Assembly (NCBI GenBank): GCA_935421135.1
Contig: OW285194.1
Location: 12,609,376-12,673,375, forward strand
Reading direction: 5' to 3'
Source of the DNA: Bugulina stolonifera
Taxonomy: Eukaryota > Bryozoa > Gymnolaemata > Cheilostomatida > Bugulidae
DNA length: 64,000 nt
The notes below the pieces were generated by a model. The model saw nothing but the letters and a program-made list of their open reading frames with translations. It was not told the DNA's origin and did not search any database. The translations under genes and the position numbers were made by a program. Of the stretch, positions 5,243-48,860 are shown piece after piece. Numbering within the stretch: the first letter of the stretch is position 1; every line of letters begins with the position of its first letter.

Positions 5243-8200
5243 TTAATTCACAATTGGCACAAGGCCGAGTCTATCTCTCAGTCTTTTGAATGTTTCGGTA
5301 TACACAGGCTTGGTGAGCACGTCAGCAACCATATCTGATGTGGGACAGTACTCCAGCTTGATTACGTTCTCCTGTACGGCTTGTCTGACATAGTGGTATT
5401 TAATGTCTATGTGTTTTGTCCGATTGTGGCTAACAGGATTAGCAGCAATAGCCATCGCACTTTGGTTGTCTTCGTGTATGGTTGTAGGGACATCTGGGTT
5501 CTCGCCTAGTTCATCTAACAACTTCCTCATCCAGCTCACCTCTTGTGTAGCTGCACTGAGAGCAACATACTCGGCTTCGGCAGTAGAGAGAGCAATGACA
5601 GTTTGTTTTTTGCTTTTCCAAGACACAGCAGCATTGCTCAGCATCAGAACGTAGCCCGATGTGGACTTACGTTCGTCCAGGTCTCCAGCCCAATCTGCAT
5701 CGCAGAAAGCAGCCAATATCTCTCCTTTCGTTCCGTCACTGGTGTATCTCAACCCAAGGTCAAGGGTTCCATTGAGGTATCGTAGAATTCTTTTCACAAG
5801 AGCCCAGTGCGTACTCGTTGGTTTAGAGGTGTACCTTGCAGCACAACTAACTGGGTAGGCAATGTCAGGTCGAGAGGCCATGCTTAGATACAGTAGACTT
5901 CCAACAACTGACTGATACGTCTCTTGGTCCACAACCGCCTCATCGTTTGTCGTACTTCTAAGCTTTAAACCAGGATCCATCGGGGTTGGGGCAGGCTTGG
6001 AATTTTCCATTCCATATTTCTTCAGAATATCACGGATATAACGTCCTTGGCCAATCAAGACATCGCCTGTTATATGGTCCTGAGCGATTTTCATTCCGAG
6101 AAAGTGATGCAGTGGTCCCATATCTTTCATGTCAAAGAAACTCTTGAGCTGTTTCTTGATAGTGTTTATCTCTGACACCTCCTTTGCTGCAATCACCAGA
6201 TCATCAACGTATACTGCAAGATACACAGGTACTTTCGCTGACTTCATGTACAGACATGGATCAGCACCAGTCTGAGTAAATCCCATATTGATCAGTTTCT
6301 CGTCCAGGGCAGCATTCCAGCAGCGTGGGGATTGCTTTAGGCCATACAAGCTCTTCTTCAGCTTGTACACCATATCCTTACCCTTACCCTTCTGTATGAA
6401 ACCATCTGGCTGCCTCAAGAAGACCTCTTCTTCTAAAACACCATGCAAGAAGGCGGTGGTGACATCCATTTGATGCAGTTGGAGTTTATACTTTGCAGCA
6501 AGGGCCATCAGTGCCCTAAAAGATTCGAATCTGACAACAGGGCTAAATGTTTCATCATAGTCCTCTCCAAACTTTTGGGTGAAACCTCGTGCCACAAGTC
6601 TTGCTTTATATCTCTCAATATTACCTTCTGCATCCCTCTTGACTTTATACACCCATTTGCTTCCAACCACTTTCCTTCCTGCTGGCAGCTCAACTAGATC
6701 CCATACATCATTGCTCTCCAATGATTTTAACTCCTTCTTCATTGCATGCAACCATTTCTTCTTATCTCTACCTTTCACAGCTTCATCGTATGTCATCGGT
6801 TCTGGTTCGTGCTTGGTATCATTAGCTACACTGACTCTCTCACCATAGAACTCAGTCTGCCTTCTCTCTCGACTGGACCTTCTCAACTGAGCGTCTTGTT
6901 CCACAGTCTCAGACTGAGCCTCAATGATCTCTTCATCAAATGTTGCATTGGTCTCTTTGACTTTTTTTGTGCTATCTATTTCCTCATATGTAGTGTAGCC
7001 TAGACTACCTTCGTCGAATTTTACATCTCTGCTGTAAAAGACTCTCCTTCTCATCTGGTCATAAAGTCTATACCCCTTGACCTGAGTCCCATAGCCAAGA
7101 TGAATGCATTTCCTGGACTTGGGATCTAGCTTGGACCGCTCATCTTTCGGAATGTGTGCATAAGCTGCACATCCAAAGCGCCTCAGGTGTCCCACTGTTG
7201 GCTTCATGCCAGTCCAAGCTTCAAAGGGGGTTATAATTCCCAATGGTTTTGTGGGGCTGCGATTATGCAAATATGTTGCCGTGGCAAAAGTCTCCGCCCA
7301 GAATACCCTTGGCAACCCAGAATCTGACAACATGCAGCGTACCCTTTCTCCAAGGGTTCGGTTCAGACGTTCAGCTACTCCATTTTGCTCAGGAGTCTTG
7401 GGGATAGTGTACTCATGTCTGATACCTTGTGTTTTCAAGTAGTCTTCAAACTCTTTTGAGACATATTCACCTCCATTGTCAGTTCGCAAGGTCCTCAGAC
7501 TTGCTCCAACACTTTTCTCAGCCACAGCTTTCCACTCTTTGAATTTTTTAAAAACCTCACTCTTCTTTCTGATCATGTAGGTCCATGTGAATCTTGTCTT
7601 GTCATCAACAAAGGTAACCACATACTCATATCCACTGAGTGATGGTACTCCCATTTTACCACATACATCAGAATGGACCAACTCGAGTGGTTCTCTGCTT
7701 TGTATATCTGATTTCACTTTGAAGCTACTTCTTGTCTGCTTTCCTTCGACACAAGGTTCACAGAAGCGATTATTCAGGCTAGGTTTATAGCCAAAACCAT
7801 TCACCATACCTTTCTTAGACAGTGTGTTCATCCTATCCCAGCCAAGATGACCATACCTTTGATGCCACAATACAGGATCACTCTTGGCTAAGAGCGCTTC
7901 CGGTTCACCCAAAGAGCACCGAATCCGGAACAGGCTCCCTACTCTGTCTGCATATGCCACAACGTCACCATTACTATCTCTTATCTCACCTCCAGTCTGG
8001 TCAAAGACCGTAGTCTTCCCATACTCCGAAGCTTTTGCAACACTGAGTAAGTTGTATGAGAGTCCAGGCACCAACAAAACATCATGCAGACGCAGCCTCC
8101 TGTGTTTTCCTGACTTCATGTTGACCTTGATTGTCACATCTCCTTGCCCCAATGCCTTCAGTTGCCTACCGTCACCTAGAGTAACCTTCACCGGTTTCTC

Positions 8201-9148
8201 TAATTCTTGGTAAGAACAGAAAATTTCTTTGTCCTGGCACATGTGGCAAGTAGCCCCGCTATCAACAATCCAATCATTACCTGACTGGCATCTTGTTGAT
8301 AGTGCATGTTGGACTATCAGACCAGCAGATTCATCACTACTACTGCTTTCACTGCTCCATGTAGCCTCGGCTTTGTGTGCTTTGTGCTTCGATTTCTTTC
8401 CTCTGTGTTTTCCTTTTTCTTTCTTTGATTTTTGATGACGGGAATTATCATTTTCCGGGCAGTTTCTGGCAATATGGCCAAACTCCTCACACCTATAACA
8501 CTGTGGTCCTTTCTGGTGTTTGTTCTTCTTCCGAACCATCATTGCATTCTCTTCACCATCATGAGCTCCATTAGCTCTGGCTTGTATTTTCCGTTCCTCA
8601 TGAAGGAGCCGCTCTGTCACAACCTCCATCTTAGGCACTTCAGCATTAGCTTCCAAAGCAGTGACTAAAACACTGTACGACTCCGGGAGACTCGCCAATA
8701 ATGTCACAACCTTATCTTCCTCCTCCATTGGTGCTCCAATCACAGCTAACTCACTAAAAACTTCAGTCATAGATTTTATGTGGTCTGTCACACAGTTGCC
8801 ATCTTGTAGGCTGAGTGAGTTCAACCTTCTCCTCAGTGCAAGTTTGTTAGCCCAGGTTTTCTTTTGGAACTGGTCTTGCAAGACATTCCACACAACCACT
8901 GGATCAACAGGGTCTCCAAGCAGATACAGCAATGATGGCTCAATACTCAGCACAATCGTAGCTAACGCCTTGTCACTACGTGCCATAAACTTAGCCCGCT
9001 TATCCACATCCGTTGACTCCGGTGCCTGCTCAGAACCATTCACAATGCCCCATACACCATCTCTGATTAACACCATGCGACACTGTATTTTCCATGTGGG
9101 ATAGTTAGTTCCATTCAACAATACGATTGATGCACCTTTACTATCCAT
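5243..9148 (-). CDS. gag-pol: Copia gag-pol polyprotein
   Basis: One uninterrupted frame of about 1,301 residues encodes all copia functions in the usual order. A Gag region comes first and ends in a CCHC zinc knuckle (CYRCEEFGHIARNC, near residue 215). Then follow an aspartic protease (IVDSGATCHMC, ~295), a GAG-pre-integrase HHCC region (WHQRYGHL), a DDE integrase (HSDVCGKM; TDNGGEY; NGVAERLNRT), a reverse transcriptase with YVDDLVIAA (~978) and an RNase H with CDADWAGDL (~1152). Integrase before reverse transcriptase is diagnostic of Ty1/copia. The open frame extends to a Met at 9214 inside the LTR, but that would read through the primer site. I prefer the Met at 9148, just inside the primer site. 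All catalytic motifs I checked are intact. Confidence 0.95.
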   Translation of the reverse strand: MDSKGASIVLLNGTNYPTWKIQCRMVLIRDGVWGIVNGSEQAPESTDVDKRAKFMARSDKALATIVLSIEPSLLYLLGDPVDPVVVWNVLQDQFQKKTWANKLALRRRLNSLSLQDGNCVTDHIKSMTEVFSELAVIGAPMEEEDKVVTLLASLPESYSVLVTALEANAEVPKMEVVTERLLHEERKIQARANGAHDGEENAMMVRKKNKHQKGPQCYRCEEFGHIARNCPENDNSRHQKSKKEKGKHRGKKSKHKAHKAEATWSSESSSSDESAGLIVQHALSTRCQSGNDWIVDSGATCHMCQDKEIFCSYQELEKPVKVTLGDGRQLKALGQGDVTIKVNMKSGKHRRLRLHDVLLVPGLSYNLLSVAKASEYGKTTVFDQTGGEIRDSNGDVVAYADRVGSLFRIRCSLGEPEALLAKSDPVLWHQRYGHLGWDRMNTLSKKGMVNGFGYKPSLNNRFCEPCVEGKQTRSSFKVKSDIQSREPLELVHSDVCGKMGVPSLSGYEYVVTFVDDKTRFTWTYMIRKKSEVFKKFKEWKAVAEKSVGASLRTLRTDNGGEYVSKEFEDYLKTQGIRHEYTIPKTPEQNGVAERLNRTLGERVRCMLSDSGLPRVFWAETFATATYLHNRSPTKPLGIITPFEAWTGMKPTVGHLRRFGCAAYAHIPKDERSKLDPKSRKCIHLGYGTQVKGYRLYDQMRRRVFYSRDVKFDEGSLGYTTYEEIDSTKKVKETNATFDEEIIEAQSETVEQDAQLRRSSRERRQTEFYGERVSVANDTKHEPEPMTYDEAVKGRDKKKWLHAMKKELKSLESNDVWDLVELPAGRKVVGSKWVYKVKRDAEGNIERYKARLVARGFTQKFGEDYDETFSPVVRFESFRALMALAAKYKLQLHQMDVTTAFLHGVLEEEVFLRQPDGFIQKGKGKDMVYKLKKSLYGLKQSPRCWNAALDEKLINMGFTQTGADPCLYMKSAKVPVYLAVYVDDLVIAAKEVSEINTIKKQLKSFFDMKDMGPLHHFLGMKIAQDHITGDVLIGQGRYIRDILKKYGMENSKPAPTPMDPGLKLRSTTNDEAVVDQETYQSVVGSLLYLSMASRPDIAYPVSCAARYTSKPTSTHWALVKRILRYLNGTLDLGLRYTSDGTKGEILAAFCDADWAGDLDERKSTSGYVLMLSNAAVSWKSKKQTVIALSTAEAEYVALSAATQEVSWMRKLLDELGENPDVPTTIHEDNQSAMAIAANPVSHNRTKHIDIKYHYVRQAVQENVIKLEYCPTSDMVADVLTKPVYTETFKRLRDRLGLVPIVN

Positions 9149-9154
9149 AGTGAT

Positions 9155-9168
9155 CTGGGCCCATAACC
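9155..9168 (-). promoter_or_regulatory. Primer-binding site, internal initiator tRNA-Met
   Basis: The plus-strand bases CTGGGCCCATAACC next to the LTR equal the anticodon arm of eukaryotic initiator tRNA-Met. The element RNA would therefore pair with an internal tRNA segment rather than the 3' CCA end. This half-tRNA priming is the mode known for Drosophila copia. Confidence 0.85.
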
Positions 9169-9487
9169 TGTTAGCAGTCACTTGTGTTAGCAGTTGATCT
9201 TTTGGTGTATCCACTATGTATTCAACAACAGCACAAAAGTCAACTCATGACAATGGACTTAGAACACAGACAGAGGCAAGTAATAAAAACATGTGCAAGT
9301 AATTAAGGCTAGTACTAAAAACAATACAGAAGTTACAACTGACCAATCAGGTTAAACTCAGTATAAAAGCATGACAAACGTTGAGGTTAATATATAGGAC
9401 AAACAGCAAGTAGTAATTGCATGTAAGGCACAGAGACTGTCATATGAAAGCCATCAATTGACAATTGTGTATTACACTATACTAACA
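9169..9487 (-). repeat. 5' LTR of the copia element
   Basis: This is the upstream LTR for minus-strand transcription, matching the 4917-5235 copy over 319 bp. The promoter is expected here; on the minus strand a TATATATTAA run corresponding to plus 9390-9400 is the best TATA candidate. The flank TCAAT at 9488-9492 completes the target duplication. Confidence 0.93.
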
Positions 9488-33676: not shown

Positions 33677-34864
33677 TCAACAGCTCTCCTCTCGTTGAAG
33701 TTCTCCTAAAGCCAGAATTCCCATCAGGCCTGTGAGAATCATAGAGAACTCATTGATCTCTACTTCCTGTTTGCGCATTTCAAACCGCAGAGTGTCTGGG
33801 TGGTCCACAAGTGTAGTGGCATATGCAATTTTTACAAAAGCTAAATTTTGGTAAAAGTTGACATAAGCTCGATCGCTAGCCTTTGATTTCCTAATTCGCT
33901 GCGATATAAGATTCTGGTCTAGTTTGTCGTAAAAGCTATGAGGAAATTTATTTTTGTCATGCCTTCTTCCTAATGTTTCGCCTTCGCATACAATTTCACA
34001 GCGCTCAAATCCACGATCCCCATTGACTTGGAATACCGGGTTTCTTTCAGAGTCAACAACTTGCATTGATATGTTATCGAAAGCGTCTTCCGTGTATTCT
34101 ATGTAGCCCACTACAGTGTTTCTTTTCAACTCCATTTGATATTCTTTATAAATTGTTGAATCTAAACTGCATTTGAATCCAGTGTCCTGTATCAGTGTTA
34201 TATACACATCCTCGGTTAGAAATGCTCCAAGAAGGAATCCTAAGCCAGTGTGATGTATCATTGGTGGAACATTGAGAACGCCCACTTTACACTGGAAATG
34301 ATCCTTGTCTACCAAATAATGGCTGTAAAATGCCGAGAATAGGATCCTGATTTTCTGCATAGCATCTAATTGGTCAAAGTGTTCAGTAAAAAATATAAAT
34401 CGAGATGCATTAGAATCTTTAGGCAGGAGAGTTTTAGCATTGATTGTGTCACCAGGCAAGCATTTGATACCAATCATTTTACCTCGATGATCATCAGACA
34501 TATTTACCAAATCTAGAACTTGTTCACCATTTTCATCAACTGCTTTATCAATAAACATGAATCCAGCAGTTTGGTATTCACAGTCATTCTGCTGAAGTCG
34601 TACTTCTAGCCCATCTTCTCCACTTAGATCACCATACATTTTAACAACAAGCCGGGAAGGGTTTGGGTGTGCCTGGATGTACATGGTAACTACTCCTGCT
34701 TTGTGATCCAGTATGATTCGGACTGAGTGGTGGCTACTCTCTTCTACACACTTATAAATATTCCATCTGTAGTACTCCCGCAGATTTGTATCACTGTAGA
34801 ACTGTACCATGGTGGCCTTTTTAGCCAGCTCAAATGCCTTGTGTATCCATTCTTCAGTGTTCAT
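33677..34864 (-). CDS. Uncharacterised scramblase/tubby-like protein, paralogue 1
   Basis: A single-exon frame of 395 aa from the Met at 34,864. An in-frame Met at 34,909 would add 15 residues, but the paralogue at 47.3 kb aligns from the later Met (MNTEEWIHKAF against the start of MAGKYTDVEEFINSAF). The C-terminal half alternates strand-like segments: GYIEYTED, then VVDSERNPVFQVNG, then CEGETLGRR. The end is VEINEFSMILTGLMGILALG, hydrophobic. This order resembles phospholipid scramblase and LURP/tubby C-terminal barrels, with a final buried hydrophobic helix. That is a fold-level inference, and the first half matches nothing I know. No signal peptide. It is one of three related copies around the polymerase element. 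Confidence 0.7.
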   Translation of the reverse strand: MNTEEWIHKAFELAKKATMVQFYSDTNLREYYRWNIYKCVEESSHHSVRIILDHKAGVVTMYIQAHPNPSRLVVKMYGDLSGEDGLEVRLQQNDCEYQTAGFMFIDKAVDENGEQVLDLVNMSDDHRGKMIGIKCLPGDTINAKTLLPKDSNASRFIFFTEHFDQLDAMQKIRILFSAFYSHYLVDKDHFQCKVGVLNVPPMIHHTGLGFLLGAFLTEDVYITLIQDTGFKCSLDSTIYKEYQMELKRNTVVGYIEYTEDAFDNISMQVVDSERNPVFQVNGDRGFERCEIVCEGETLGRRHDKNKFPHSFYDKLDQNLISQRIRKSKASDRAYVNFYQNLAFVKIAYATTLVDHPDTLRFEMRKQEVEINEFSMILTGLMGILALGELQREESC

Positions 34865-35019
34865 TTTTTCAGAGAGTTCAAACCAGCTCGTTATAGCTTT
34901 TGTTATCAATTTTTTTTAGTTTAGTGTGAATTATAATGATCCACAATAATACCTAGTTAGTATTTTTTAGTTATCTGAGAAAATAGTTCAAATACTTATG
35001 TTCATGATTTAAAGCCATT

Positions 35020-35933: not shown

Positions 35934-36740
35934 GTAACTCTACGGTGTTGCTAAGGAGACAATAACCAGTAATTCTGAAATAATGATTGTATTGCAGGAG
36001 GTATCCAAAATTTTCCGCAAAACTGCATAGATCTCTGCTAAAATGCTCTATAGTCATGTCAAGGTCAACAACTCTTGACATGGAGCAAGCAAAGTTGCAG
36101 TCTTACTGTGAATAAATGAATTAGGATGATATGAATAGAATAAATAATTTTTGTTGGATAGCATGTTAGATATTTATTCCAAGGCAAAATTAAATGCAAA
36201 AGCAAAATTAGGGAACCGGGCCCTCCTAGACGGATCTTCTTGTAAGGCACTGCTATGCATGAAGTCGTTCCTTCCCTGGCGCTGACACTTATCAGATGCA
36301 TGTTTAATCTGTTTTTAGTATAAAACTATAAAGCATTTGTGTTTATTATAATTATTTCAACCATTACAACTCTTCTGACAGCCAATGCTGTAGAATCATC
36401 TAACTAAAATACTTACATGTACTTATCAAGAAACAGACGGATGAAGGTAGTTTAATCTTATGTACATTAGCAACCATTATAATTATACATAACATGAAGC
36501 ATTTTAGGAAAGGATTTCTATAATTTCTAGCAACTTTGTCCAAATATATTTATCGAAAGTGGACTAGGTATGTTGATGTATAAATAAACGAACTATATAA
36601 TTTGTTCCACAGTTTGACAATACTATAATAAATTTGACTACTGTTGAGACCTCATTTTGATTGCTAGAAACTTCTGTTAATGCATTTACATTGCAACGTG
36701 ACGGCTAGTAAGCATCCTATGGCTACTACGTTGCTACATC

Positions 36741-37284
36741 AGTAGTATAGTCAGTGCAGATCTACACAGACACCCGGCCCTTTCCGCGTCGTATTAGCCC
36801 TAGATCCAAAAACTCCCCGGGCGGACGACCACCCCACCCGTCCTCTCGCCCCTCCTCTCCCCTAAACCTCACTCTATGTGCAAAGCCCTAGAACCTACTC
36901 CCCCCCATCGCGGGTGGGGTTTCAAAAACCTCATCGGCTGTTCCGCGGAACCCAGTCTAAAGAGCAAACCCCTCGCCCCGTCCCACGGCTCGGGCGAGGG
37001 GGCGCGCGCGTACGCGCGCGCCCCCCCGCCCCGCGAACCCCACCCGTCCTCCCTCCACCCGTCCCCGCCCCTCCCCACCCCTCCCCACCCCAAACCCCTC
37101 CGCCTCGCCCTCCGCCTCGCGGCGGTTCTCGTTCGCGAGTCCAGCCGTGGCCCCACGCCGCCCTCCCCCCGCCCATCCCCCGCCCCTCCCCCGCCCTCCC
37201 GCCCCAACGACCCGTCGCGACCCTCGCGGGCGGACCGTCGGCTGGAGTAGGGTGAAGCGAAGGAAAATACGGGTTAGAGTAATG
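36741..37284. repeat. Left terminal inverted repeat
   Basis: 544 bp, mirrored at 45,844-46,402. Very GC-rich in the centre, with C-tracts and the 28-bp perfect palindrome at 36,998-37,025. The two repeats differ mainly by one extra 15-bp unit (ACGGGTGGAGGGAGG) in the right copy. Open frames in all six phases here come from base composition and are not genes. Confidence 0.93.
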
Positions 37285-37299
37285 GTGTGTGATGTATTC

Positions 37300-37705
37300 T
37301 AGAATAGATGATATACGACTATGAAAATATGAGTCAGGGTAATGATACACGAGTTTGTTTTAATTTTCAATGCGTTTGAGAGTAATAATATAAAATCAAT
37401 CGATAAAAAACTTGATATGTGACTACGAAAAATATGAGTAAGGGTAATGATACGCGAGTTTGTTTTAATTTTCAATACGTTTGAGAGTAATAATATAAAA
37501 TCAAGCGATAAAAAACTTGATATACGACTATGAAAAATATGAGTAAGGGTAATGATACACGAGTTTGTTTTAATTTTCAATACGTTTGAGAGTAATAATA
37601 TAAAATCAATCGATAAAAACCGATATACGACTATGAAAAATATGAGTAAGGCTAACGATACACGAGTTTGAGAGTAATAATATAAAATCAATTGATAAGT
37701 AGACA
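37300..37705. repeat. ~104-bp tandem repeat, about four units
   Basis: Units start at about 37,317, 37,421, 37,526 and 37,629 (last one shortened). They contain GACTATGAAAAATATGAGTA, GATACACGAGTTTG and ATATAAAATCAATCGATAAA. The array lies between the left inverted repeat and the 3' end of the ssDNA-binding-type gene, so it may include that gene's 3' untranslated region. Confidence 0.9.
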
Positions 37706-37736
37706 CGAATGAGTGTGAATGACAAAAGTTTTTGCC

Positions 37737-39051
37737 TCAAAACTGTGCAGTGGCGGGGAGGAGACGCTCGCCGAGGATGGAGTCTAGAATGGCACAATCG
37801 TAGAATGTTCTCCCGCTCTTGGAAGTCTTCTGTCCCTTGTACACCATCACGGAGGGGAGGAGCTCTTTCATCGAAACTGCCAGACGTCCCGGAAGGAAGA
37901 CTTCTCCCTTTTTTTCTTCGTTTCCAATCCGGCACTCGTAGGTGGCAATGGAGTTGCTCGCATTATCACCATCACCGCATCTTGGGACGTATGTGGGTCG
38001 GAGCGCGGTCACCACCAGCACAGAACCAACGGGGAAGGAAGATAGCGTTTGCACTCGAAAAAATTCTTCCAACTGGGCCAAGGTCTTCTTTCTCAAGTCA
38101 CCGGCCAGCTTTTTCATGGCTGCTCCTGGCAGGGAGCACACGCTCTCGATACGGTTGAATGTGTTTTGTCCTTTAGCGGTCTCCTGCTGTCCCAAGTACA
38201 CCATGATCCTAGGTGGAAGGGTAAGGTCCTTTAGCTCCTCTTCTTTGACATCCGCTAGCTTGGGCATGGCGTGACGAATGTTGGTGTGAAAGCTGATGCA
38301 ATGTCTCATCCCCTTGTCATCCACATAGCTTGCCCTGGCTAAGAATGCTTTTCCGAATGCCGTTTCAACCACCGAACCTCCACTCACTTCTAGCACAGTT
38401 CCTGGCTCTAGCTCCGACAGCTTCACCGTTGTCTGCAGAGAGCTCCTCTTCTCCGCTCCCATGCTCCTACAATAATGAAAGTGGTGTATATAGATCCGAC
38501 AAAGTGGTTAAACGGGAGAAAGATAGTACGGTAATTTATAGATATACGAATAGGGCTACTTACATTAGGGTTGCCGCCACTGCACGAGCTTTCTCCAGGC
38601 TTAGTCCCCCGCTCTTTTTCTTCCCCTTGCAAGGGGACTTGGTAGCTTTTTTTCCCTTCGTCGTCTCACCACCATCCATTTCTTCCGTAGCCGTATCGGC
38701 TCCGTGGCCATCATCATCATCATCTGATATTACAATCACCTGGGGTTTCTTTTTTTTCTTAGCACAGATTTCATCTCCTTTTGGGTTCTTCCTCTTCTTG
38801 GTTGTTGTGGTCTCGCCCCTATCCGAGGCCCGCTCCGGGGAGGACGGAGAGTCCGCCATGTTAGAAAGATCCTTTCGGGCAAGACTCCCCACTCCTATTA
38901 TTTTCCCCTTCTTCCGTGCCTCTTTTAACGCATCCACCTCTTCTTTCCTCTTCTGACTGCACTCTTCTTCTTCAATAATTCCATCCATTTGTGAGTCCGT
39001 TAAGCCCGCAAATAACTCTTCTTGGTTCTGGACTATGTTGTCAGTATCCAT
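37737..39051 (-). CDS. Putative ssDNA-binding protein with duplicated OB-like motif
   Basis: Two exons, 38,564-39,051 and 37,737-38,466, joined by GTAAGT and TTGTAG in phase 2, give 405 aa. Without splicing the second exon would begin at its own Met (38,462); the in-frame junction argues for one protein. The first ~160 residues are acidic and basic in turn, with Lys-rich nuclear-localisation-type stretches (KKRKNPKG, AKKKKKPQ, KGKKKSGG) and a poly-Asp run. The rest contains a repeated unit: PPRIMVYLGQQETAKGQNTF and PSVMVYKGQKTSKSGRTFYD about 95 residues apart, with strand-like surroundings, which suggests two OB folds. Next to a DNA polymerase, an SSB role in replication is the natural inference. 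I do not recognise the exact family. Confidence 0.72.
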
Positions 39052-39188
39052 TGATAATGTACTATTGTAGTAGTGTTCCTGTACAGTAGTGATGTGCTGA
39101 ACTTTGAATGCTGAGACTGTGATCCCACTCTCCCTTTATACATCTGCTCATTTCTTGACTCCTCCCTTTTTATTATCCAATCCCAATG

Positions 39189-39950
39189 TGTCCCGATGCA
39201 TCCCGATGTGAATCCGAAGCTTCCCGATGCATCCCGATGTGATTCCGAAGCTTCCCGATGCATCCCGATGTGAATCCGAAGCTTCCCGATGCATCCCGAT
39301 GTGATTCCGAAGCTTCCCGATGCATCCCGATGCATCCCGATGTGATTCCGAAGCTTCCCGATGCATCCCGATGTGAATCCGAAGCTTCCCGATGCATCCC
39401 GATGTGATTCCGAAGCTTCCCGATGCATCCCGATGTGATTCCGAAGCTTCCCGATGCATCCCGATGCATCCCGATGTGATTCCGAAGCTTCCCGATGCAT
39501 CCCGATGTGAATCCGAAGCTTCCCGATACATCCCGATGTGATTCCGAAGCTTCCCGATGCATCCCGATGTGATTCCGAAGCTTCCCGATGCATCCCGATG
39601 TGTCCCGATGTGTCAATTCACATCGGGGTGCATCGGGATGCATCGGGATGCATCGGGAAGCTTCGGAATCACATCGGGATGCATCGGGAAGCTTCGGATT
39701 CACATCGGGATGCATCGGGAAGCTTCGGAATCACATCGGGATGCATCGGGAAGCTTCGGATTCACATCGGGATGCATCGGGAAGCTTCGGAATCACATCG
39801 GGATGCATCGGGAAGCTTCGGATTCACATCGGGATGCATCGGGAAGCTTCGGATTCACATCGGGATGCATCGGGAAGCTTCGGAATCACATCGGGATGCA
39901 TCGGGAAGCTTCGGATTCACATCGGGATGCATCGGATTCACATCGGGGTG
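39189..39950. repeat. Large inverted array of 31-bp units
   Basis: The left arm (39,189-39,612) and right arm (39,619-39,950) are reverse complements around a short centre (TCAATT near 39,612-39,617). Each arm is a tandem array of a 31-bp unit made of CCCGATGCAT, CCCGATGTGA and TTCCGAAGCTT, where the third block often starts ATCC instead of TTCC. Some units carry an extra 10-bp CCCGATGCAT. Each unit holds two small palindromes, GATGCATC and GAAGCTTC. About 13 units lie on the left and 10 on the right. It sits between the start codons of the two divergent genes, where a shared promoter or replication origin would be expected. Open frames through it are artefacts of the repeat. Confidence 0.95.
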
Positions 39951-39977
39951 GTATTGCCAAGGGTGGGGAAATGGTTA

Positions 39978-40050
39978 GACTCCGCCCACTGAATACTACT
40001 ATTTAAGGTATGAGTTTCTCACTCTAGCAGTATGAACAATCAGCCTCTGG
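39978..40050 (+). promoter_or_regulatory. Probable polymerase gene promoter
   Basis: Immediately right of the inverted array come a GC-box-like ACTCCGCCCAC (39,979-39,990) and a TATA-like CTATTTAAGG (40,001-40,010), then sequence leading into the first exon copy. Position and spacing fit a polymerase II core promoter for the plus-strand gene. Confidence 0.45.
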
Positions 40051-40057
40051 TCAACAG

Positions 40058-40407
40058 AGTGAGAGTAAACAGAGACAGCTACCTACTAGTCAGCACCTGA
40101 TCAGAGATGTCAACAAGTACAACATAAGGTTAGTGCTAAATAGGGTAATCGGCAGCAATTGTGAAGTGTCTATTGTATATAACGCTATTGAGCCAAAAAC
40201 AAAAAAAATTAACTTACACCCTACTACTATATATTTTTTATAGGGAGACTAAACAGAGACACCTACCTACTAGTCAGCACCTGATCAGAGATGTCAACAA
40301 GTAAAAAAGGTTAGTGCTAAATGAGGTAGTTGGTAACAATTGTGGATTGCTAATAGTAGTATGAGGTAAAAGAATAACTTACACCCTACTATTTTGTATT
40401 TTTATAG
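40058..40407 (+). repeat. Tandemly duplicated 5' exon and intron
   Basis: Two similar blocks lie in tandem. Each has an exon with CAGAGACA, CTACCTACTAGTCAGCACCT and GATCAGAGATGTCAACAAGTA, then a donor GGTTAGTGCTAAAT and an acceptor TTTTTATAG. The first copy's ATG (40,107) meets TAA after six codons. The second copy's ATG (40,291) splices in frame into the polymerase. Confidence 0.8.
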
Positions 40408-43400
40408 GGGGGGAGAGCTCTCGTCAGGCCGAGCACACTTGTCAACTATGCGGTCTGGTTCTCAAAACAGCGTTTTCTCTAGACAGGCACACGAAGAGAA
40501 TGCATGCACAGGCTCACCCACACAAGTGCCCGGTTTGTGGTGGATGTTTTGATGGGAGGAGAAAGCTAGGTCATCACATGAGACGATTTCATAGCGAGGC
40601 CAAGGCGGAAAAAGATGAGGGGGATGCAGAGAAGTTTGATGATGTTTTCTGGTCCAAACCTCCAACAGCTGAAGAGGGGGATGAGATGGGGGTGCTACTA
40701 GCCCGCTATTGGAGCTCGATCAGGTCCACAATACACTCTCGTCCTGTAGAAGACATTCTCAACGTTCGAGTGTGGAGAGGGGAATGTGAAGATGAAGGAG
40801 ATGAAGAGGTGTGGACTAAATTGAGAGCGATGTGGAAGAGAGTACCTTGTACTGTGAAGATTAACTGTAGCGCTGGAGTCATCCTCGAGCATAAGACCAG
40901 TGGAGAGTTGCGCTACTTTCACTCATCAAGCAACAATGCCGCGTTCTTCCCCAAGCCAAGACTGATCAGAGCAGAGAATGAGATGAGAGAGTTTTGCGAA
41001 TCTGTGCAGGAGCTCGACTTGAGAGAGAGGTCAGCACAAAGGAGACCGAACACCGCTTGGGCTTTACGTCACATTGCGAATCTGACATTCTACATCTATA
41101 AACTCCTAGAGATTGGCAAGGTGGGCGGTGTAGTGAGCAAACTCCCAGACTACATACTTAACAACCGACATGTGATAGCACTAGATGTAGACTTTTGGGC
41201 CAGAGGAGGTGCCCGTCCCTACCCAGACAAATTGTGTTTCTTTAGATGTTTGGCCATGATGTATGACTGTAACTGCGACCCAAAGAAGGGATGTTGCTGT
41301 CATCGCCCCTCTCAGACCACAACACATCGCTTGTTTAAACAATACATGAGACAATCTAGATCTTCTTCCCCACCCTCATCAACTTTGTCAGACTTTCCCG
41401 GGGTGGGCGCGAGTGATCTGCTGGCCTTGGAAGATCATTTTGACATATCTATAATAGTCTTCTGCCTAACTGATGAGGGGGTAGCTCCGATAGTTTGGTC
41501 ATCTGGGGCACGAAACAAAGCCCGTAAACTCTTTGTCAACATGTACGAAAAACACTTCAGCTGGATAAAGAATGTTGATTCGTTTGCCAGATGTTTCACC
41601 TGCAAGTTGTGCGATGGCGCTTTCACACGTTTGTCCAGCCTACGGCGACATAAGTGCTCGCCAGAGGAAGCATCGGTGTTTGTTTTCCCTGGTGGAACGT
41701 TTGGACCCCCGCCAACCATATTCACAAAACTCAAGCGAGTGGCGGGAATAGAGGTGGTGAACCCCGACCTCTTATACTACCCCTACTATATCACCTATGA
41801 TATTGAATGCTTCATGCCAAAAGACAACCTACAAACTAACACCTCCACAATGACTTTTAGTGCAAGACACGAGTTACTGAGCATATCTGTATGTTCTAAC
41901 GTCCCGGGGTTTGAGCAGGCCAAGTGCTTTGTGAGGAGTGTCGACAGCAAGGATGGAACGAAGTGCATTCGTCAATTCGTCCACTACATAGCAAAGATTG
42001 CTGACGTGGCAGGAGATTTGTTCGGAGAAAGATTCCGGGATGTACGCAAGCGACTCTCTACTTTCCTTGCGGATCGGGCGGATAGAGAAGAAGCCTTTGC
42101 TGACGAAAAGTTCTCTAACGTCTCGACTTACAGGGTGAAGTCCGGTCTCTCCGGATTAGAAAGAGAGTTAGAACAGCACATCTCCAGCGTTCCGGTGGTT
42201 GGTTTCAACTCACAAAAGTATGACCTAAATATACTAAAGGGACCTTTGCTTCGCTCTCTACAAGAGGAGGAGGGAGAAGATTTTGTCTTCATCGTTAAGC
42301 GTGTTAACAGTATGTCCTGCGTGGAGAGTAGACGTTTTAGGTTCCTTGACATATGCAACTTTATCGCACCGGGCTTCAACTACTCCAAATACTTGAAGGC
42401 ATTTGGCGTGTCAGAGAGTAAGGGATTCTTTCCTTACGACTGGGTAGATTCCCTGAGAAGGTTGGATTATTATGGACTCCCTCCCCGAGAGAGTTTTTTC
42501 AACTCGCTGACTCAGCAAGAATTGAGCGAGCAAGATTATCACCACTGTCAGGTCGTGTGGGAAAGAGAGAACATGGAAACGTTCAGGGATTTTCTCATCT
42601 GGTACAACAACCTCGATGTGGCCCCATTCATCGAGGCCATTGCACGTCAGAGCTCTATCTATCGACAAAAGGGTATTGACATGTTGAAATCCGCAATCTC
42701 GCTTCCAGGCTTGGCTATCAGATGGTTGTTTATGGAGGTGGAGGCCCGACCTTATGGCTACTCTCCTCCACAAGCCGCTCTTCCGCTGCATAGGTTAATG
42801 TCTCTCCGAGACGAACTTTGCAACTCGCAACCCATATGTCTGTTCGATGAGGAGAGCAAAAGTCTGTACCATACTCTTCGCGATAACCTCGTGGGAGGGC
42901 CAAGCATTATCTTTCACAGACATCATGAAGTTGGAGTGACCTCTATTCGAGAGAAGATGTATGGCACATCCGCAAAACCCTGTAGGTCCATTCTGGGAGT
43001 TGATGCCAACGCCCTCTACCTATACTGTATGATGGGGAATATGCCTACGGGTTATCCCAGGCGGAGGCTAGAGAGCCGAGGCTTTGCTCTAGAACCTATT
43101 AAAAAGTTCAGCAAAGTGGCGCATGGTTGGTTAGAGTTCCAATCGTGGAAGAGAGGAGAGGTCATCCTTCACCAACAGAATGGAGGAGAAATGAGGATAG
43201 GCTGTCACAACCTACCAGTGGATGGTTATAGCGAACAGAGTCGGACGGTGTACCAATTCCACGGTTGCTACTGGCATGGGCACGAGTGCGAGCTAGGAGG
43301 GAACGGAAAAGGTGTCAGAAACATGACGAATGAAGAGCTCCGGGTGGACACTGCAAGGAAAGAAGATTACATCAAGGCTCTAGGCTATAAGCTCATCACC

Positions 43401-44956
43401 ACTCGGCAGTGTGAGTGGGAAGCGCGAGTTCGTTCGGATGTAGAAGTTAGGACATTTCTCGCCATCTTCTTTTCTTCTCTCTATCCGGAGAGGGGTTACG
43501 TCAACCTCGATAAGATAATCAATAACATTCGTAGTGGAGAGTACTATGGTTTAGTGGAGTGTGACATTTCCGTACCCGAAGAGCTAAAAGCGAAGTTCTC
43601 TGAGATGGCACCTATTTTCAAGAATATAAACGTGGGAAGAGAACACCTTAGCGAACACATGCGCGCTTTTGCCGAACAGAACGGATTCTTGAAGAGACCT
43701 CAGCGAATGCTCGTGGGGAGTCTTTTTGGCGAGCGAATCACACTACTCTCCGATCTGGCTAGATGGTATCTAGATCAAGGTTTGATAATTACCAGGATCT
43801 ATCAGTTTGTTCACTTTATCCCACGAGCCATCTACAAAGACTTTGGTTCTTCGGTCTCAGACGCAAGAAGAGGTGGGGATGTGAACCCCGACCTGGCCCT
43901 CTTGGCCAGCACCAGCAAGCTCGTTGGGAATTCAGCCTACGGAAAGACCATAACAAATAAAGAGAAACATAAGACTGTCAAGTATGTGGAGACAGTAGAG
44001 GAGGCGGCTGTCAAAGTGAGGAGTAGGCACTTTTCTAGTCTAAACGAAGTTGATGAAAACTACTTTGAGATAGAGCTTCACAAGAAAAAGGCAAGTGTTG
44101 ACAATCTTTTTTTTTTATTTTGATTCTTGATTTGACGAAACTTTTTCTGAGTGGTAGGGTAAACTCTCTCTCTCTCTTTCTTTCTTTTAGATTCGAATGG
44201 ATGTTCCATCTGTCGTAGGATTCGTTATCCTCCAGAGAGCCAAGTTGAGAATGCTAGAATTCTACTACGACTTTATGGATAGGTAAGTAGCACTAGACTA
44301 TACAAAGATTTTATCAAATCCTTCTCTATTTATTCTTTGGTGTCAACCCCAACCCCCCCCCTACAACCCGTCCGTTTTATTTTCACAGATTCGTCAGCAG
44401 AGAGGACTTTGAGTACGTAGAAATGGACACGGATAGCGCTTACATGGCTCTGAGTGCTCGTAGTATAGATGAGGTCATCCGAAAAGATAAAAAAGAAGAG
44501 TTCTACAGAGAATATGGTAGATGGTTTCCCAGACCCTTCTGCGATAGGCACAAGGAAGACTTTATCACGACCAAGGTGCTTGGCCAAGAGTGGGAGATGA
44601 GGGAATGTTGTGAGAAGGTGCAACGATACGAAACACGAACCCCCGGCCTGTTTAAGGAGGAGTTTCGGGGGGAGGGGGTCATCGCGCTCAACTCAAAAAC
44701 ATACTTTTGCTGGTCCGCTGATGGTGATAGCAAGTATAGCAGCAAAGGACTAAACAAAAGAGGAAACGCCCTAACCAAAGAGAAGTTCCTCTCCGTGCTC
44801 AGGACAGGGGAGTCGGTGAGAGGGGACAATCGGGGTTTTATCAGAAGAGGAAACCAAACGTATAGCTACACCCAGCTAAAGACCGGACTCACCTACTTCT
44901 ATGGTAAGCGGAAGGTTGCAGAAGACGGGGTGAGTACGAGTCCTATAGAATGCTAG
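40291..44956 (+). CDS. Zinc-finger, protein-primed-type family B DNA polymerase
   Basis: Four coding exons (40,291-40,309; 40,408-44,090; 44,191-44,282; 44,389-44,956) give 1,453 aa; intron 2 is GC-AG (AAG|GCAAGT). The upstream start is supported because the short first exon completes a C2H2 finger at residues 18-39; finger 2 is at 47-68 and a related finger near 405. An OTU-like stretch follows (DKLCFFRCLA ~280; KHFSWI ~389). Exonuclease motifs: YDIECF (D471), FNSQKYD (607-612), YNNLDV (739). Polymerase motifs: VDANALYLY (D872), KLVGNSAYG (1177) and DTDS (1278-1281), then LFKEEF and SKTY. A Vsr-like FHGCYWHGHEC lies near 958-968. The end KRKVAEDGVSTSP matches the family terminus, so I read through an alternative GTGAGT donor at 44,930. 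It should replicate the element. Confidence 0.9.
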
Positions 44957-45391
44957 TACTGATTTCTCGGAGATGAGACTACTTCATTCGATAAATTGGA
45001 GAGTAAACGAACAGTGCATCATAACCCTTGTACATATACCCGTATAATTTTTTTCACATTCACTCTCTATTGTAAGGGGTCTCCGTCCTCAAAACGGAGG
45101 GTTTACCGGTTGTAGCCTTAAAACCGAGCAATAAAACACTAGCTAATACATTAAAAACCATTTACCTCTCCAAACCAAAGGGGTAGACGATACTAGCGCA
45201 GCTTCCGCTCATACTCACCCCTTATCAGTTCACATTTCTTCTATTGTCTTCATTCGTAGGTGGGGGGTGACATCGCACGCGCACGATGCGCTCTCTCCCT
45301 ATCGGAGTTTGCTACCCGGGGGAAAGTGGACGCGGTGGTCAAAGAAATTGGTGGCGAGTCAACGACATCATCGTAGAGGCGGGTCTATTTG

Positions 45392-45441
<50 letters not shown>

Positions 45442-45843
45442 CGATGGCGATGAGAAGACAAGCGTCCATCTATCCCGTTTATCTATTTCTATTTCTACCC
45501 CTCCGAGCGATGATGTCGTCGGCTAACCTCCTCGCGAAGTCTACGGTTTGAAGCGCGGAAGAGCCACCGCCTTCACTTTCTCTCGCCGCTCGTCACGGGG
45601 ACGGGCGATTTCCCTAGGGGAGGGTCCGGGGAAAATGAGGGTTAAGACTCGAGTCTTTCATCGAAGGTCCGGGGGCGCTCGAACGGAGGAGCGCGCGAGT
45701 GCGGTGTCACCCCGACCAGTTCAGTCTCAACAGTCCCCGGCACAGTCCCCGGAAGCACCACCACCACCACTCGGTAAGTTTTTTATAGTAGTATAGTCAG
45801 CGTCGTAAACTCTGCACGGGCACTCCGCACGGGTGTAGCCTAT
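44957..45843. other. 3' region of the polymerase gene and spacer
   Basis: Contains an AATAAA signal at 45,130-45,135, a GAT trinucleotide run at about 45,395-45,440, and GC-richer sequence leading to the right inverted repeat. If the donor at 44,930 is used, an acceptor TTCATTCGTAG ending at 45,259 would add 38 codons (VGGDIARARC...) ending at 45,376. That isoform is possible but less like the family C-terminus. Confidence 0.5.
45548..45796 (+). CDS. Small basic ORF of unknown status
   Basis: An 82-codon frame rich in Arg, Ser and later Pro/Gln (RRSSRGRAISLGEG; SQQSPAQSPEAPPPPLG). A consensus donor CTCG|GTAAGT lies inside its end at 45,772, so transcripts entering it could splice onward into or past the inverted repeat. 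GC-rich sequence gives long frames by chance. I recognise no domain. Confidence 0.25.
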   Translation: MKRGRATAFTFSRRSSRGRAISLGEGPGKMRVKTRVFHRRSGGARTEERASAVSPRPVQSQQSPAQSPEAPPPPLGKFFIVV

Positions 45844-46402
45844 CATTACTCTAACCCGTATTTTCCTTCGCTTCACCCTACTCCAGCCGACGGTCCGCCC
45901 GCGAGGGTCGCGACGGGTCGTTGGGGCGGGAGGGCGGGGGAGGGGCGGGGGATGGGCGGGGGGAGGGCGGCGTGGGGCCACGGCTGGACTCGCGAACGAG
46001 AACCGCCGCGAGGCGGAGGGCGAGGCGGAGGGGTTTGGGGTGGGGAGGGGTGGGGAGGGGCGGGGACGGGTGGAGGGAGGACGGGTGGAGGGAGGACGGG
46101 TGGGGTTCGCGGGGCGGGGGGGCGCGCGCGTACGCGCGCGCCCCCTCGCCCGAGCCGTGGGACGGGGCGAGGGGTTTGCTCTTTAGACTGGGTTCCGCGG
46201 AACAGCCGATGAGGTTTTTGAAACCCCACCCGCGATGGGGGGGAGTAGGTTCTAGGGCTTTGCACATAGAGTGAGGTTTAGGGGAGAGGAGGGGCGAGAG
46301 GACGGGTGGGGTGGTCGTCCGCCCGGGGAGTTTTTGGATCTAGGGCTAATACGACGCGGAAAGGGCCGGGTGTCTGTGTAGATCTGCACTGACTATACTA
46401 CT
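45844..46402. repeat. Right terminal inverted repeat
   Basis: 559 bp, reverse complement of 36,741-37,284 with one additional 15-bp unit near 46,070-46,100. Carries the mirrored 28-bp palindrome at 46,118-46,145. Ends CTATACTACT next to the target copy TACATC. Confidence 0.93.
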
Positions 46403-46408
46403 TACATC

Positions 46409-47307: not shown

Positions 47308-48591
47308 TTATTGGGCATTGGCCATGAGCTTTGCAGTTTTTTGAAGTTCACCCATGCAGATCACTTCCATTAAACCTGTCAAAACCATAGCAAACTCGTT
47401 TATTTCGAGCTCGGGGCGGTAGGTCATGTTGATTTTGAAAATGTGTGGAAAGTCTGGATTTGGTCTCACAGTAGCAGTTCTTTCATGTGCTAGTAATTGG
47501 TAGAAAGAAACAAAGGGCTTCTCCGTTATTGTGACAGTACGTGACACTAGCATTTGACCTTTAGTGTCATAGAATGTAGGTGGGTGTTTGTCAACATGTT
47601 TGCTCCCTAATGATGTGCCCAGACATTTTATTTCAGTCGACCTGAAATTTCCCATCGAAGTTATGTGAAACAAGTAGTTCTTCTGATTGTCCAATACTTG
47701 CATGTAGGTTTCATCATTACATTTTTCTTCACAGTTAATATAGCCTATGATAGTGCCTTTCAGACTCATTTCATATACTTTATATATTATGGAGTCTAAG
47801 GTACGCTTAAAGCTGGTATCCTGTATCGGTCTTAAGATAACATCATGAGTTGAAAATTGCTTAAGGAGGTGCCCAATGGCGGGCACGTCATCACTCATGT
47901 GTAATCGGTTATTGACGCCTGATCTGTATTGAAAAACAGGTTGCTGTGACTGGGGAATGTAGCTATTATAGAATGCGCAAAACACTACTCTCATTTTCTG
48001 AACTGCAGTTAAACTGTCAAAGCCTCGATGGAAAAAAATGTTTCTTTCATTTCCATCGTTTTTTGGGTGGTCATTTCTGTCTCTGAGAGGGAGCACTGTG
48101 TATGCACTCTCAACTTCTACAAATCCTGCTTTGCCTTGCTCATCTATATCATCTATTAAACTTTTCAGGTGGATTTTACTACCAAGTTGTCTTATGTTCT
48201 CAGTCGTTACCTCTATTACAATCTTTCCATCTTCATCTTCTGCCCCTTGAAGGTAGATGGTGCCAGCATCCCTGAAGTTCATACCGCCACCATCTTCTCG
48301 AAATCTCATTTTCAAACTCACAAAGCCACTGAGATCTCCGTCAACCTTGACCAGACACCGTGTGTGATGCGGGTAGACTGCCACCCGTATTGAGACTTCA
48401 GAAGCTTGATGGTCAATGATGAATCGAAAAGAGTTCTCGTTGCCTCGCGGCAACTGGTCATCCTTACGGATCGCAAATGAGTAATATTCTCGATTACTTG
48501 CATCAGTTTTACAATAATTAAGTGTTGCTTGATATGCATCTTTAAATGCACTATTTATAAACTCTTCAACATCCGTGTACTTACCAGCCAT
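47308..48591 (-). CDS. Uncharacterised scramblase/tubby-like protein, paralogue 2
   Basis: A single-exon frame of 427 aa starting MAGKYTDVEEF. It aligns along its full length with the 33.7-kb protein: VKVDGDLSG against VKMYGDLSG, TAVQKMRVVFCAFYNSYI against DAMQKIRILFSAFYSHYL, IQDTSFKRTLDSIIYKVYEM against IQDTGFKCSLDSTIYKEYQM, and LEINEFAMVLTGLM against VEINEFSMILTGLM. The fold inference (scramblase or tubby-C-like barrel with a hydrophobic C-terminus) is the same and tentative. No introns, signal peptide or obvious catalytic motif. The two intact paralogues and one relic flank the Polinton-like element, so the element probably landed in a tandem gene family. Confidence 0.75.
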   Translation of the reverse strand: MAGKYTDVEEFINSAFKDAYQATLNYCKTDASNREYYSFAIRKDDQLPRGNENSFRFIIDHQASEVSIRVAVYPHHTRCLVKVDGDLSGFVSLKMRFREDGGGMNFRDAGTIYLQGAEDEDGKIVIEVTTENIRQLGSKIHLKSLIDDIDEQGKAGFVEVESAYTVLPLRDRNDHPKNDGNERNIFFHRGFDSLTAVQKMRVVFCAFYNSYIPQSQQPVFQYRSGVNNRLHMSDDVPAIGHLLKQFSTHDVILRPIQDTSFKRTLDSIIYKVYEMSLKGTIIGYINCEEKCNDETYMQVLDNQKNYLFHITSMGNFRSTEIKCLGTSLGSKHVDKHPPTFYDTKGQMLVSRTVTITEKPFVSFYQLLAHERTATVRPNPDFPHIFKINMTYRPELEINEFAMVLTGLMEVICMGELQKTAKLMANAQ

Positions 48592-48860
48592 ACTACAGAT
48601 TACCCTGCAATCTGCACACTCCTAATTAAATAATTTAGTTCATTTTCAAAGTCAAATTTCATTTATTTCTTAAACCGCACAGATGAAATAATTCGCATAT
48701 TTGTTCTACAAAACTTCATAATAATATTATTGTGCATGCTCTACAAAAGTTGTGGAGGGAAAGCAAATAAAACATTGTATCATGGGTATTTATACACATG
48801 CCTGACGAGGTAGAAATTATGGTGTAGCAATCTTTAACTGGGGCAGCTCTGTTGCAATTA

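Follow-up and report, generated by a model that had tools for sequence, protein, structure and literature searches.

A polymerase-bearing mobile element of Bugulina stolonifera with no recognisable integrase, a possible satellite of resident Polintons

The window analyzed here is a 64,000-nucleotide stretch of the bryozoan Bugulina stolonifera (contig OW285194.1, C8, positions 12609376-12673375), and it contains a mobile element of 9,662 bp (window positions 36741-46402) that encodes its own DNA polymerase but no recognisable integrase, packaging ATPase, or capsid gene. Searches of the genome (234.95 Mb, 27 contigs) revealed that this is no lone deletion: the element is a family of hundreds of copies, and the sampled copies are recent. 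An abundant, recently active polymerase element of this composition fits neither Polintons, also called Mavericks, nor Polinton-like viruses (PLVs). We consider it fairly probable that the element is a replication-competent, integrase-less satellite of Polinton-type elements, which would be copied by protein-primed replication and inserted by a Polinton integrase supplied in trans.

The element is bounded by long inverted repeats that are much richer in GC than the flanks (69% vs 36-37%), with the same six bases on either side. This agrees with a first-pass annotation of this DNA, which had described a 6-bp duplication and inverted repeats of about 550 bp beginning with AG. The boundary features are:

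36735..36740, no strand: left target-site duplication, TACATC, read in the sequence
36741..37284, forward strand: left terminal inverted repeat, 544 bp, 69% GC, starting with (AGT)2
36741..36746, forward strand: AGTAGT end triplet repeat, identical to the Maverick (AGT)2 end-motif and the predicted site of jump-back initiation in protein priming
45844..46402, reverse strand: right terminal inverted repeat, 559 bp, finishing with (ACT)2
46403..46408, no strand: right target-site duplication, TACATC, read in the sequence

Both ends carry the terminal sequence AGTAGTATAGTCAGTGCAG, and in the sequence as read the right repeat is longer by one 15-bp unit.

The end sequence provided a direct measure of abundance. 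An exact 19-mer from the element end occurs 329 times in forward and 332 times in reverse orientation (661 in the genome; control 0), and these counts rise to 826 and 833 when up to two mismatches are allowed (control 3 and 2). The 100 end places listed among the 661, located on contig 1 and part of contig 2, resolve into 44 pairs, with 12 ends left single; 30 of the 44 pairs span 9.5-9.91 kb, with a median of 9,662 bp. The longest pairs measure 11,134 bp (L011, through an internal duplication) and 10,553 bp, the shortest 40 bp, and none of the 44 exceeds 11.2 kb. At C1:14505550-14505589, two element ends face each other within 40 bp, a minimal end-to-end remnant.

We then sampled 20 copies, which are the top matches to one repeat after the window copy (40 of 696 candidates scored); for 19 of them both ends lie inside the retrieved stretch. 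A perfect 6-bp duplication was found in all 17 testable copies, each with its own sequence and its own flanks, and likewise in the window copy; L012 and L026, cut at the stretch end, and L011, whose right end falls outside the stretch, could not be tested. Taken together, the 18 duplications display a weak Y-R-T centre at positions 3-5 (12 T and 6 C; 11 A, 6 G, and 1 C; 14 T of 18). One copy, L027, is inserted in a dispersed repeat, and a search with its joined flanks, in which 40 of 1,106 candidates were scored, returned 47 matches, two to its own flanks and 45 crossing the junction. In three of three such paralogous empty sites (L048-L050), the homologous six bases are present once, with two of the six differing, and no insert is found. 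The first-pass annotation had expected an empty site to show the target once, which is thus borne out at paralogous sites of L027 and not at the window's own site. The joined flanks of L013 matched its own flanks only and gave no empty site. The repeat hit by L027 is itself a dispersed sequence of ~200 bp with many copies and a tRNA-like stretch, GGTTTGAACCC, and may be akin to a short interspersed element.

The sampled copies also appear intact. All five exon stretches are full-length and free of frameshifts in 20/20 copies, with a single 3-base indel (L026), four exons were checked for stop variants and have none, and identity across the 20 copies ranges from 99.76 to 100% in polymerase exon 1. 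In this exon, 17 copies diverge from the window copy by 0.029% and three (L026-L028) by 0.244%. The compact gene content is uniform in 20/20 copies apart from an array deletion in L013 and the internal duplication in L011, and the most variable part among the 17 main-subfamily copies is ~0.9 kb to the right of the polymerase. The first-pass annotation had proposed collecting full-length copies to compare their duplications and gene content. With variants called against the window copy, unpolarised, and a neutral expectation of 75% amino-acid-changing, 7 of the 17 distinct polymerase variants change an amino acid, a depletion (P 0.003).

The main gene of the element is this polymerase, previously annotated as a spliced family-B enzyme, a description which holds: it matches DNA_pol_B_2 (PF03175) at 27.1 bits (cut-off 25.8), and three exons are resolved, with two introns near the gene end that have GT/AG borders. 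An additional upstream exon is likely. The features of the gene are:

40058..40403, forward strand: tandemly duplicated stretch of ~181 bp 5' of the polymerase, a probable 5' exon/intron region
40410..44096, forward strand: exon holding most of the domains (its frame is open from 40365, and the 5' border is approximate)
40437..40592, forward strand: N-terminal C2H2 zinc fingers (Pfam match below cut-off; PDB zinc-finger proteins at E 8e-6)
40683..41105, forward strand: alpha/beta domain, from an AlphaFold2 prediction, located where protein-primed polymerases have their terminal-protein domain (D1)
41235..41555, forward strand: vOTU-like region with Cys291 and His397, both invariant in a 64-row alignment
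43188..43439, forward strand: Vsr-like nuclease domain inserted in the palm (VDG..FHGCYWHGH..CEW), individual matches all weak
44191..44282, forward strand: next exon, with GT/AG borders
44389..44956, forward strand: last exon, with the stop codon and the MDTDSAY motif

In an alignment of 27 rows (the window polymerase, 25 relatives, and the polymerase of L039, a Polinton locus of the same genome), the motifs DIEC, FNSxKYD, YNNLD, DANALY, and KLxGNSxYGK are kept; we take the first three to be ExoI, ExoII, and ExoIII, and the last two to be palm motifs. The Vsr-like stretch is placed between palm motifs and is missing from the Polinton polymerase. Its assignment to nucleases comes from a weak Pfam Vsr match and a PHROGs endonuclease match (residues 958-1024, E 1e-4), and Pfam Vsr is detected at E <=0.01 in 7 of 27 sequences. 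An AlphaFold model of residues 85-445, built from the 64-row alignment, displays an alpha/beta domain followed by a Cys/His domain (mean predicted local distance difference test, pLDDT, 88.2), and the former is a putative terminal-protein domain. The Cys291/His397 region fits the vOTU domain described in protein-primed polymerases, an assignment made by comparison with that description (PMC11071308; papers are cited here by accession).

The polymerase belongs to a lineage of its own relative to the Polinton enzyme. The best 120 of its 1143 relatives under threshold include proteins of Exaiptasia, Holothuria, Branchiostoma, Asterias, and Patiria, and an integrase domain is listed for none of these 120, many of which carry no listed domain. 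Among the best 120 of 4171 relatives found for the Polinton polymerase is a Stylophora protein that has both rve and chromo domains. In a midpoint-rooted FastTree phylogeny of 52 sequences (the window polymerase, L039, and 30 and 20 relatives, respectively; 876 columns; no other polymerase families), the two sets are split by a long internal branch, and a regular expression for the Vsr-like motif matched 94/120 relatives in the element set vs 0/120 in the Polinton set. The tree does not bear on which of the two states is ancestral. Scans of viral contigs with the polymerase and with the 27-row alignment returned no relatives. Because this clade and that of the only resident Polinton examined are far apart, the word "derivative" that the first-pass annotation had applied to the element is doubtful, and a deletion derivative of that particular Polinton was set aside as a candidate.

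Outside of the polymerase, little else could be recognized. Pfam scans covered 16 open reading frames (ORFs) of the element (six plus ten, a subset of all ORFs), and tblastn searches used 12 proteins encoded at Polinton-type loci in the same genome: two integrases (one whole, one partial), two ATPases, one polymerase, and seven other frames. Only the polymerase query matched the element (E 1e-12 and 6e-4), the next best match being at E 0.066. No rve integrase was found in the 16 ORFs by Pfam or with the whole and partial integrase queries, and no packaging ATPase by Pfam in the same ORFs or with the two ATPases from the same genome (best E 0.49). Neither major (MCP) or minor (mCP) capsid protein nor protease was matched by Pfam in these ORFs, with no protease query and no verified capsid query used in tblastn; queries from the capsid region, including a 388-amino-acid frame, gave nothing under E 0.06 and are themselves without Pfam match. 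The absence of capsid genes is therefore less firm, being based on the fact that no domain was recognised and that no space is left for additional genes. Polymerase aside, Pfam returned only sub-cut-off matches to domains of unknown function, and the ORFs in the ~0.9 kb right of the polymerase gave sub-threshold matches only. Within these searches, the earlier impression that the element holds nothing else convincing stands. Full-length copies with integrase and capsid genes, which would have marked it as a deletion derivative, did not appear either: neither kind of gene is recognisable in any of the 20 sampled copies.

One further gene is present, divergent from the polymerase and consisting of two exons:

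38564..39051, reverse strand: exon 1, charged, with a VIVISDDDDD stretch
37737..38466, reverse strand: exon 2 (putative single-stranded DNA-binding protein)

The two exons join in frame (39051-38564 to 38466-37737) to encode 405 amino acids plus stop by manual count, and the VIVISDDDDD stretch is presumably a SUMO-interaction-like motif. Exon 2 has a single relative besides itself (P0122, 43% identity over 97%). The product has no Pfam or NCBIfam match, its five PDB rows are all at chance level (best E 0.62), and its single-sequence fold is unusable (pLDDT 32). Hence, the divergent arrangement noted in the first-pass annotation is upheld, as two exons rather than a single ORF, while its label of single-stranded DNA-binding protein found no support in these databases and is a guess by analogy with protein-primed systems such as phi29 (PMC4974454).

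If the element lacks an integrase, the genome offers candidate helpers. The packaging-ATPase profile PF04665 has 10 matches in the genome, and one of the associated elements is a Polinton of 15,049 bp at C1:4278024-4293072, with TAATAT duplicated on both sides, that encodes an rve integrase (PF00665, 36.6 bits, E 6e-9), a DNA_pol_B_2 polymerase (95.3 bits), and the ATPase. Its end reads AGTAGTATAGACTCGCCGG, of which the first 10 bases are the same as in the element. A second Polinton end type, AGTAGTATAAAAGTACC, shares its first 9 bases with the element and flanks three further stretches of 14.8-15.1 kb around ATPase matches, plus one left end whose adjacent right end appears truncated (L045). 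Six matches are of the first ATPase type; for four of them the exact end pattern was found on both sides, for one on the left only, and for one on neither side. No similarity between these Polinton loci (L039-L042) and the element was detected by blastn (E 1e-3). Two side observations concern the same elements. At L046 (C1:34619770-34620270), a copy of our element stops 98 bp left of a second-type Polinton end. At L041/L042 (C11:849100-864900), a Polinton-like locus includes an ATPase and an rve and chromodomain fragment (both below cut-offs), with retrotransposon-like frames interspersed; terminal ends were looked for at this locus and not found.

These results suggest how the element may propagate. 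It encodes a polymerase of the protein-primed type, and perhaps also a replication accessory protein. Because the polymerase is of a protein-priming type and the ends read AGTAGT, linear DNA would be copied from the (AGT)2 ends with a terminal protein as primer and by strand displacement. Adenovirus ends read 3'-GTAGTA, and their first trinucleotide jumps back (PMC4974454, PMC3480470), while vertebrate Mavericks end most often in (AGT)2 (PMC8097293). A resident 15-kb Polinton would then supply its retrovirus-type integrase, which would insert the linear product and generate the 6-bp duplication. We infer this action in trans because 6 bp is the length of the Polinton target duplication (PMC10045372) and because an integrase-bearing element with matching ends resides in the same genome. 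Capsids may also be borrowed. Of the alternatives raised by the first-pass annotation, a self-replicating element that borrows its integrase is the best-supported reading.

Several points nevertheless weigh against a satellite of Polintons. The case for a Polinton integrase acting on the ends of the element is circumstantial, built on shared end sequences and duplication length, and the shared bases may reflect no more than protein priming and an (AGT)2 end-motif in general use. Shared ends alone are weak evidence, because Mavericks have (AGT)2 in common and replication itself could give rise to it; what points to a common integrase is the three or four shared bases beyond this motif. The genome may hold an element that combines this polymerase with an integrase and has diverged ends. 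The length survey covers the first 100 of 661 end places, a single resident Polinton was read for an integrase, and the sample, being the best matches of one repeat, favours young copies of the window subfamily. On the gene side, the terminal-protein assignment comes from a predicted model, the SSB assignment from analogy, and the capsid queries were unverified candidates. Finally, variants of the divergent gene are not depleted in amino-acid changes (7 of 9, P 0.73), and purifying selection is therefore seen for the polymerase only.

A more ambitious version of the satellite reading is that the element represents a separate class of animal mobile DNA, with its own protein-primed polymerase lineage. 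The polymerase plan of this class would comprise zinc fingers, terminal protein, vOTU, exonuclease, and a palm with an inserted Vsr-like nuclease, and its members would be replication-autonomous satellites of Polinton viruses, without integrase or capsid, at tens per helper. We hold this tentatively, at somewhat short of an even chance. If true, the class would be traceable across animals by its polymerase clade, which is seen in sea anemones, lancelets, starfish, and sea cucumbers.

Alternatively, the element may be an ordinary non-autonomous Polinton, i.e., a deletion derivative of a larger parent with the Vsr-type polymerase, an integrase, and capsid genes. Losses of this kind are on record, as 9 of 72 Polintons lack MCP, protease, and ATPase (PMC4028283), and the parent would have to be rare, diverged at its ends, or lost from the assembly. 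However, none of the 44 listed end pairs is longer than 11.2 kb, all 20 sampled copies other than L013 and L011 have the same compact content, and the polymerase of the single integrase-bearing Polinton examined belongs to another clade, all of which make this origin unlikely.

We regard as less likely still that the element has an insertion enzyme of its own, either the Vsr-like nuclease, as the first-pass annotation had also suggested, or an unrecognised integrase in the unassigned sequence. The Vsr-like motif is conserved (94/120 listed relatives; Pfam Vsr in 7/27), and spliced or very divergent genes may evade ORF scans. Yet Polintons typically show 6-bp duplications and AGT ends, and the leftover sequence is mostly repeats plus the variable ~0.9 kb with its sub-threshold Pfam matches. 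Insertion by the nuclease thus found little support and was set aside, since duplication length and ends fit an integrase. That the family is a dead or domesticated relic, multiplied by genome duplication or assembly error and not by transposition, might be suspected from sampled copies as nearly identical as those of collapsed or duplicated assemblies, but it is hardly credible in view of the 17/17 individual 6-bp duplications with their own flanks and the paralogous empty sites.

Compared to known systems, the element would work like a Polinton in its replication and in its insertion product. Both have a DNA_pol_B_2 polymerase that carries exonuclease motifs and a vOTU-like region, with a terminal-protein domain that is putative in the element, and both have long inverted repeats, (AGT)2 ends, and 6-bp duplications. 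Maverick end-motifs are (AGT)2 or (AG)3 (PMC8097293). Unlike Polintons, the element has no rve integrase, ATPase, or recognised protease or capsid gene, and its polymerase falls in a separate clade with an inserted Vsr-like domain. It is also smaller (9.7 kb vs 12.7-24.6 kb for intact vertebrate Mavericks, PMC8097293), and its genes have introns whereas vertebrate Maverick ORFs are intronless. The universal signatures of Polintons are a polymerase and an rve integrase, and what defines a PLV is MCP and mCP together with a packaging ATPase (PMC4642659). Such an ATPase is also encoded by 83% of 72 Polintons (PMC4028283), and most Polintons have protease and capsid genes as well. The element is thus outside the published Polinton definition because no rve integrase was found, and outside PLVs because no ATPase was found. 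Like the element, nearly all PLVs lack an rve integrase in the account of PMC4642659, where a resident Polinton integrase acting in trans is suggested for integrated PLVs without one; they differ from it in their ATPase, which was not found in the element, and in their capsid genes, of which none was recognised there. Capsid-less Polintons resemble it in that MCP, protease, and ATPase are lost together (9/72, PMC4028283), but presumably keep their integrase, unlike the element, because all Polintons encode polymerase and integrase as described in PMC4642659. The literature searched, which leaves out most subscription journals and, apart from some in PMC, preprints, yielded no account of an element that has a polymerase but lacks integrase and capsid genes. 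Transpovirons are likewise short linear elements with inverted repeats, and depend on a virus-virophage system. To our knowledge, they do not occur as hundreds of host-chromosome copies with 6-bp duplications, in which they differ from the element.

If a Polinton integrase is indeed used, the satellite would retain replication while giving up integration and packaging, in contrast to the usual non-autonomous element, which retains no enzyme. With hundreds of young copies and a few candidate helpers in one genome, this split between replication and integration is directly testable. The element also draws attention to an animal clade of Vsr-bearing polymerases.

The remaining sequence of the element is largely repetitive, with two inverted blocks of 31-bp iterons located centrally, between the two divergent genes that occupy the space between the inverted repeats:

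36998..37025, no strand: perfect GC palindrome, 28 bp, in the left repeat
46118-46145, no strand: the same 28-bp GC palindrome, in the right repeat
37309..37670, no strand: 105-bp repeat, 3.5 copies
39191..39612, reverse strand: iteron block of 31-bp units with a CCCGATG core (28 cores in the element)
39641..39935, forward strand: inverted iteron block between the divergent genes (22 CATCGGG cores over 39621-39941)

Rfam and tRNA scans of the window found nothing. Copies have 27-30 CCCGATG and 21-22 CATCGGG cores, except L013 (15 and 0) and L011 (58 and 39). Core counts had suggested an inversion of the iteron blocks between copies, which was ruled out, as block order is constant in 20/20 sampled copies.

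The introns and retrotransposons of the window are those of a eukaryote. Elsewhere in the window, an uninterrupted Copia-type gag-pol frame of 1,333 amino acids (RVT_2, gag, rve) lies at 5246-9244 on the reverse strand, and a frame with a MULE transposase match slightly below cut-off at 178-1323 on the forward strand. The element itself is flanked by frames of 412 and 437 amino acids, both on the reverse strand (33680-34915 and 47311-48621), which have no Pfam match and whose starts look similar by eye; they are perhaps tandem paralogs, with the insertion between them.

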